Below the pieces are notes generated by a model. The model saw nothing but the letters and a program-made list of their open reading frames with translations. It searched no databases and had not been told where the DNA came from. The position numbers and the translations under genes were made by a program. From the NCBI RefSeq assembly GCF_019880245.1, contig NZ_CP082286.1, forward strand, positions 310,001 to 374,000: a DNA stretch of 64,000 nucleotides. The letters run 5' to 3'. Every line of letters begins with the position of its first letter. The stretch's first letter is position 1. Source of the DNA: Halobaculum roseum (lineage in GTDB: Archaea; Halobacteriota; Halobacteria; Halobacteriales; Haloferacaceae). Below are positions 24,910 to 45,005 of this stretch, piece after piece.

Positions 24910-25040
24910 GAAAGCCCCCGACAGTCTCGTGGCCTGCGACTCGCTGCGCGCTTCGCACTCGGTCGCTCCGCTCCCTCGTGCTTCGGTGCTTGCCTCGTCT
25001 CGGCTCACGAGACTGTCGGCCCCTTTCAGTCCCACCCACC
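24910..25040 (-). ncRNA. Structured intergenic element, copy A (GTGGGACTGAAAGGGGC family)
   Basis: Read on the minus strand, the leader GGTGGGTGGGACTGAAAG (25040-25023) is followed by GGGC, a 13-base arm CGACAGTCTCGTG (25018-25006) and a loop of 74 bases. The perfect complement CACGAGACTGTCG (24931-24919), then GGGG and CTTTC (24914-24910) close the structure. GAAAG pairs with CTTTC, leaving a GGGC/GGGG internal loop. The copy at 40549-40664 has the same plan with a different arm sequence, so pairing is conserved rather than sequence. It could be a non-coding RNA or a non-coding mobile repeat; no transcript evidence is available. Confidence 0.6.
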
Positions 25041-25340
25041 ACGACCGCACCGCCGCCTCACTTACGTCGGAGCAAGCTCCGACGAACTCACACTCGCTTC
25101 GCTCACGGCTCACTTCGTTCGCCGTTCGCAATCGCGGTCTCATTCCATTCGACCGCGCACCGCTCGCGTGAGCCTCCCCAACCGACTCGCCTCGCTGGCT
25201 CACGGGTCGCTTCACTCGACCGCGCACCGCTCGGCTCGCCCCTCGCGCGCGTCCGGCCGACACGCAGGTCGGCCGGCGCGCGCCAACCGCGGTTCGTGCA
25301 CACCGAGCAAACAGGGTCGGTGCTCGGCCCGTCCGAGCCA

Positions 25341-25360
25341 GGGTGGGACTGAAAGGGGCC
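25341..25360 (+). repeat. Half copy (B) of the GTGGGACTGAAAGGGGC element
   Basis: The bases GGGTGGGACTGAAAGGGGCC match the leader of copies A and C. The expected distal arm and GGGGCTTTC end are not found downstream before the inverted-repeat unit starts at 25422, nor directly after that unit. This copy is therefore truncated or divergent. Confidence 0.6.
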
Positions 25361-40367: not shown

Positions 40368-40768
40368 GCGCGACTCGACCGCCTTCTGCGATAACCGTTC
40401 TCGAGGGGGAGCGACGCGTTTCTTCCTGTCCGTTGTGGCGCGTGCCGGCGAGCCTCCGTGCTCGCCGGACGCGCGCGAGGGATGAGCGACCGAGCAGCAG
40501 CGAGGGAGCGAATCGGTTGGGGAGGGCGTGGTTGCGGTCGGTCCTGTCGGGTGGGACTGAAAGGGGCTGCTGCTCTCGATAGGCGAGCCGACGCACGCAC
40601 CACAGCGAACGAAGTGAGCGAGGAGCACAGCGAGGCGCAGCCATCGAGAGCAGCAGGGGCTTTCCCGGAAGATCACGTGGTTGTAGCAGTGACAATAGTT
40701 CCGGCAACAGAGAACGTCGATCCCCACGAACGAAACCCTTACCCACCGAACGCGACCACTCACACCCA
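40368..40768. other. Intergenic region with hairpin and structured element, no gene
   Basis: Contains the perfect hairpin CCGGCGAG-N8-CTCGCCGG at about 40450-40473, then the complete structured element copy C (40549-40664). Open frames here (for example 40458-40772) are built from the repeat and have no family signature. Confidence 0.6.
40549..40664 (+). ncRNA. Structured intergenic element, copy C (GTGGGACTGAAAGGGGC family)
   Basis: The leader GGGTGGGACTGAAAG (40549-40563) is followed by GGGC, the 13-base arm TGCTGCTCTCGAT (40568-40580), a 62-base loop, the perfect complement ATCGAGAGCAGCA (40643-40655), GGGG and CTTTC (40660-40664). Compared with copy A the arms differ at seven of 13 positions and every change is compensated on the opposite arm, while leader, internal loop and terminal CTTTC are unchanged. 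Loop sequences are also related. It ends about 105 bases before elp3 on the same strand. Transcription is not shown. Confidence 0.6.
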
Positions 40769-44795: not shown

Positions 44796-45005
44796 GTTCG
44801 AACGAACGCGACGCAAGTCGTCCTCGTTCGCGACGCCGACTGGAAGGTGACCAGAACCGTGAACGAGACGACGCTGACCGCGAAAGCCCCACCCGGTTGC
44901 TGTCCGACGATCGTCGCCGCGGCGGTTCTCCTGCGGTCGTTGCCTCGGGCTCCCCTCGGACCGCGGCGGGGAGTCGGTAATCGTCGCACCGGGGGTCGAC
45001 GGACG

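Follow-up and report, generated by a model that had tools for sequence, protein, structure and literature searches.

Sequence comparisons support the view that a widespread repeat of the archaeal order Halobacteriales is under selection for its structure, and that the letters of its stem are nearly free to change. Two full copies lie in the window, i.e. the whole stretch of 64,000 nucleotides from Halobaculum roseum that was analysed. The reading we favour, with a confidence a little short of even, is a family of tagged hairpin repeats, dispersed through genomes across the order and working like the REP/REPIN elements of bacteria. A constant tag (GGGTGGGACTG together with the GAAAG/CTTTC clamp and the GGG/GGG loop) would carry a hairpin cassette of nearly free stem sequence, and selection would act on the fold of the tag-to-tail strand, be it ssDNA or RNA. 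We infer that a protein recognises the tag plus the foldback, and that cassettes may spread either as copies into tagged sites or through conversion from one such site to another. The family is abundant and old across an archaeal order, yet it is absent as a family from the collections searched.

The element plan consists of GGGTGGGACTG, the GAAAG/CTTTC clamp, a GGG/GGG internal loop and a (1+13)-bp stem-loop, and uninterrupted copies measure 103-128 nt. Both full copies present a common order: GGGTGGGACT, GAAAG, GGG, C, a 13-nt arm, the loop and the complementary arm, followed by GGGG and CTTTC. Because the initial G of GGGG is the partner of the C, the stem comes to 14 bp; it sits on a 3x3 G-G internal loop, which is closed by a clamp of 5 bp. 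Copy A (24910..25037, minus strand) reads GGGTGGGACTGAAAGGGGC, CGACAGTCTCGTG, a 74-nt loop, CACGAGACTGTCG, GGGG and CTTTC. Its constant leader or tag, with the GAAAG clamp and GGGC included, occupies 25019..25037 and is conserved order-wide; the 5' arm follows at 25006..25018, a type-1 loop with the core AAGCACC...GCGCAGCGAGTCGC at 24932..25005, the 3' arm at 24919..24931 and the constant tail GGGG CTTTC at 24910..24918, all on the minus strand. The second full copy (40549..40664, plus strand) has its leader at 40549-40567, the arms TGCTGCTCTCGAT and ATCGAGAGCAGCA at 40568-40580 and 40643-40655, the loop at 40581-40642 and the tail at 40656-40664. The covariance model scores them at 123 bits (copy A) and 120 bits (second copy), both being members of its training alignment. 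Compared with shuffled sequence, folding yields a z of -3.4 for either copy, and leader matches in the window number three against 0.05 expected by chance. The third match is a solitary leader at 25341..25359 (plus strand, 22.6 bits); it is oriented away from copy A and its hairpin is gone, so that copy A belongs to a decayed inverted dimer. On the minus strand at 44882..44902 there is a collapsed copy, GGGTGGGGCTTTCGCGG, with its hairpin deleted. Its GGGT/GGGG junction is the one seen in the congener G005, where at the L009 locus GGGT is joined to GGGGCTTTC, an example of loss by deletion between G runs. In agreement with an earlier note on this DNA are the layout of copy A, the plan shared by the second copy and the seven compensated stem differences, all of which hold on both copies; new are the extra C-G pair beside the stem, the GG ahead of the leader, and the dimer formed by copy A and the remnant at 25341.

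The stems of the two copies differ at exactly 7 of 13 positions per arm, and both are perfectly paired. Among 18 distinct stems of the same genome, compared with the loops cut out, 98.8% of cells are paired (72.1% when shuffled), and two-sided changes occur in 13 of the 14 inner pairs; the covariation score of 0.657 (0.152 shuffled) was reached in none of 500 shuffles. For 327 elements from many genera, pairing amounts to 95.0% against 49.7% after re-dealing the arms; these elements had been required to show 8 or more of 12 pairs, and for this reason the percentage has to be read against the shuffle. Relatedness is best controlled for by comparing the same locus. In 26 orthologous pairs within the genus the leader is 97.2% identical, a value inflated because the loci were fetched by the leader, as were several other sequence sets in which the estimate of leader conservation is likewise biased; the tail, which was not used for fetching, is 99.1% identical among copies with a recognisable tail. 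In the same pairs the arms (75.0 and 77.6%) are similar to the flanking 60 nt (78.3 and 74.0%), and the loop reaches 76.9%. The orthologous loci contain 82 changed stem pairs. In 61 of them both sides have changed and each species has a Watson-Crick pair; wobble pairs are involved in another 13, and the remaining 8 are broken. These figures, together with the shuffles, bear out the earlier claim of selection on structure.

In 17 close pairs with near-identical loops, we count five two-sided and eight one-sided stem changes, beside 33 loop differences at 1234 sites, and this coupled change exceeds the expectation from independent hits. Its source could be cassette exchange inside existing stems or a hairpin-templated change. 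Wholesale replacement as the sole cause was rejected: orthologous interiors are bimodal in similarity, and the divergent ones sit where the flanks are also older, so that ordinary near-neutral turnover is enough for many of them. As a natural record of compensatory evolution the stem data are unusually clean, combining the same locus, near-neutral letters, strict pairing and one strand.

The mismatches that remain point to a single strand. Transitions are expected to create G-T and A-C mismatches equally, and symmetry would likewise be expected if both DNA strands folded. On the tag-to-tail strand, non-redundant stems contain 93 G-T and 16 A-C mismatches (p about 2e-14), a strict subset 47 and 14 (p about 3e-5), and an inner helix of the type-2 elements described below 96 and 8. 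The excess of G-T indicates that the selected object is the fold of one strand, RNA or ssDNA. Surplus C-to-T mutation is not the obvious cause, given that tag-to-tail loops contain more A than T. This asymmetry and the conserved G-G mismatch argue against a two-strand cruciform.

An exact search finds 22 chromosomal leaders in this genome, followed in 20 cases by a full-length hairpin (uninterrupted or enlarged) and in one by a short hairpin. The covariance model, built from 16 copies of this genome that match by construction, finds 39 copies, 38 of them chromosomal (main contig); further copies with compensated stems, which the earlier note had named as a test, do exist. Ten congeners possess between 2 and 44 copies each according to the same model, and one of them (G003), which a pattern-only reading took to be devoid of the element, has two. 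The congener locus L044 is identical in sequence to L055 of H. gomorrense, which points to Halobaculum as the genus. With a pattern that fixes only GAAAGGGGC and GGGGCTTTC, 108 of 195 Halobacteriales genomes are positive; pattern matches are zero in many genera. Outside this order, a phylum-wide sample gives only two matches, AT-rich and with no apparent stem, which are taken as chance. The exact leader has no match in viruses, where four matches to a shorter word proved to be unrelated sequence without a hairpin, and none was found in the phage collection. Type-2 relatives are present on megaplasmids of Haloarcula, Halorussus and Haladaptatus. Rfam covariance models identify only a tRNA in the window, and the element itself has no match up to E 5; the motif is also absent from all haloarchaeal paper texts searched in an open library. 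The family thus seems to be undescribed so far. That several genera of the same family yield no match to the strictest patterns may explain why it was overlooked.

The loops fall into two types. Type 1, AAGCACC...GCGCAGCGAG, occurs in Halobaculum and many other genera. Type 2, found in Halorussus and relatives, has several helices in its interior, a CTAT/ATAT motif and a covarying helix of its own; here it is the inner helices that vary, on an outer stem that hardly changes. The conserved internal motifs AAGCAC...GCGCAGCGAG and CTATC...GATAT look RNA-like. Two different copies, L012 and L015, share a small foldback, GTTCGAGACGGCTTCGCCGTCTCGTCATCACGAAAGAC...GTCTTTCGAAC, within their loops, and it reads as a second repeat family with the loop as its target.

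The Halorussus genome G124 contains three copies with identical interiors, whose flanks beyond tag and tail are unrelated or only weakly similar, and G170 and G092 present the same pattern; in G170, one stem pair differs on both arms between two copies with identical loops. Copying of cassettes with sharp ends does occur in these genomes, and relatives of Haloarcula possess inverted heterodimers spaced 28-45 bp apart. Most Halobaculum copies sit at shared loci, so that little recent movement is visible there. The earlier suggestion of a non-coding mobile element is partly supported by the cassette copying, with the shared Halobaculum loci on the other side.

Gene context was obtained with a codon-model gene finder built for this analysis. 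All 97 copies examined lie between genes: 30 are co-directional with both neighbours, 28 are opposite to both, 27 are in divergent gaps and 12 in convergent ones. Orientation relative to genes is random, and the distance to the start codon that a copy faces is often 85-130 nt. In the window, a gene of the IF-2B family lies downstream of copy A and an Elp3-like gene downstream of the second copy; at the copy-A locus, the element is missing in four congeners. No shared neighbour gene appears as a driver except at orthologous loci. By inspection, a nucS/endA gene pair flanks the element at L067, L078, L087, L146 and L163, and this locus has a different intact stem in each of several genomes. For 323 copies, the 120 nt upstream of the tag contain neither a TATA-like peak nor an AT-rich box, and the sequence there is AT-poor. 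A coding origin of the leader was discarded, as there is no conserved frame. On contig C1 of this genome, the plus strand appears by eye to predominate among copies before about 1.4 Mb and the minus strand among those beyond it, a pattern that would suit co-orientation with replication. Upstream of the Halobaculum copies stands one or another of three repeat modules, GAGTTCGTCGGAGCTTGCTCCGACGTAAGTG, ATCGGYTGGGGAGG...GCGGTGCGGT or GGTTCGTGCACACC...CCCGTCCGACC (window 25038-25340 and 40437-40548; upstream flanks of L001-L022), which swap at orthologous loci (L001 vs L037).

Several other explanations compete with the REP-like reading. A possible one, to which we give a substantial minority chance, is a new class of element in which nothing but the platform (tag, clamp and G-G loop) would be fixed, the displayed hairpin being continually replaced or rewritten as a matched pair. 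Hairpin-templated change or the copying of cassettes would give each locus and species a different but always intact folded strand; the element would be either a very abundant, so far undescribed RNA family or a foldback diversifier without known counterpart. The main rival, which we consider unlikely on balance, is a structured ncRNA family whose loci would be transcribed from tag to tail, the RNA folding and binding a protein or target. It would account for the surplus of G-T wobbles over A-C mismatches, for the multi-helix consensus fold of type 2 with its conserved internal loops and covariation, for the retention of leader and tail at orthologous loci, and for the mostly chromosomal location (38 of 39 copies). 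Against it stand the AT-poor upstream sequence with no sign of an own promoter, the random orientation to flanking genes, a copy number that varies from 2 to 44 inside one genus with zero pattern matches in many genera, and a different stem in every copy. Of the earlier proposal of an undescribed ncRNA family, the word undescribed stands, as no match was found in Rfam or the literature searched, and the mismatch asymmetry fits RNA; an independent ncRNA is disfavoured by the promoter and orientation data. If the element does act as RNA, it would be a major ncRNA family not known before.

Other readings fare less well, and terminators, ordinary MITEs, CRISPR relics and omegaRNAs all fit worse. 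It is improbable that the repeat acts in cis between neighbouring genes, as a transcription insulator, a terminator or an mRNA-end hairpin: its strictly intergenic position, typically 85-130 nt from the faced start codon, and a hairpin stable in either direction would suit such a role, but orientation is random, convergent gaps are rare (12 of 97), a T run is missing, the G-T asymmetry points to one fixed strand, and four congeners lack the element at the copy-A locus. Most copies have four G runs of at least three, the runs persist although the spacer between the second and third varies from 5 to 8 nt, and G-G mismatches persist inside an otherwise paired foldback; all this recalls a tag-anchored G-quadruplex with the hairpin as third loop (GGG-T-GGG-ACTGAAA-GGG-hairpin-GGG), a structure that would put no constraint on the stem letters. 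We regard it as quite improbable. The GAAAG/CTTTC clamp competes with it, and the second run is frequently just GG in the Halorussus group (GGGTGGACTG), so that a quadruplex could form in most copies and not in all. There is even less reason to assume an ordinary MITE of a DDE insertion sequence with the stem arms as terminal inverted repeats, which we judge very improbable. The outer ends GAAAGCCCC...GGGGCTTTC are conserved and do form inverted repeats, and inverted dimers as well as insertion/deletion polymorphism exist; the arms, however, vary between copies of one genome whereas a transposase needs constant ends, no transposase gene is common to the neighbourhoods of the copies, and the alignments reveal no clear target duplication. 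Hardly credible, finally, is a palindrome with no function, kept perfect by template-switch correction at replication. The coupled two-sided changes in copies with near-identical loops (5 among 17 close pairs) would be its signature; the GGG/GGG mismatch within the foldback, which is never corrected, the conserved leader and tail, and the G-T/A-C asymmetry speak against it. Asymmetry and conserved mismatch largely refute this model, although such correction may still speed compensation.

With regard to known systems, the motif GTGGGAnTGAA recalls the 3' half of haloarchaeal type I-B CRISPR repeats, a likeness that the earlier note had pointed out. This resemblance is not supported: only the 13-nt leader is shared, the flank upstream of GGG has little shared sequence, and unlike CRISPR repeats the elements are dispersed single copies with no array and with a palindromic foldback in place of spacers. 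A one-strand hairpin adjoining a short tag is also typical of IS200/IS605 ends and omegaRNA; identity with TnpB omegaRNA was rejected, as the element is not at the tnpB 3' end and the 14 TnpB loci of this genome all lack the leader. Haloarchaeal intergenic sRNAs measure 50-200 nt and include conserved RNAs without assigned function in Halobacteria (PMC7002113, PMC3956466); our element is likewise intergenic and of comparable size. REP/REPIN elements have GTAG/CGTC tags and 20-40 bp, and their families differ by complementary stem changes; G-T pairs were also noted by the authors (PMC3733652, PMC3116915). Differences from them are the tag GGGTGGGACTGAAAG, the length of 105-130 nt, the archaeal host, the long loops with two interchangeable architectures, and the fact that almost every stem differs within one genome, unlike in a REP class. 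A RAYT (Y1/HUH) transposase tied to the repeats was found neither in this genome nor in G009, G002, G003, G004 and G008; this genome has a single Y1_Tnp, on contig C3 with a TnpB gene about 1 kb away, and none was found in G009, which is 93% complete and has 21 copies. As in REP/REPIN, the element is a multi-copy, extragenic, dispersed palindrome beside a constant tag, and inverted dimers are present, which in REPINs are homo- or heterodimers. Anatomically, it works like a tagged REP/REPIN while falling outside REP proper by tag, size and the RAYT search. If the folded strand is ssDNA, it would represent a clearly tagged REP-like system in archaea and point to a putative foldback-recognising protein.
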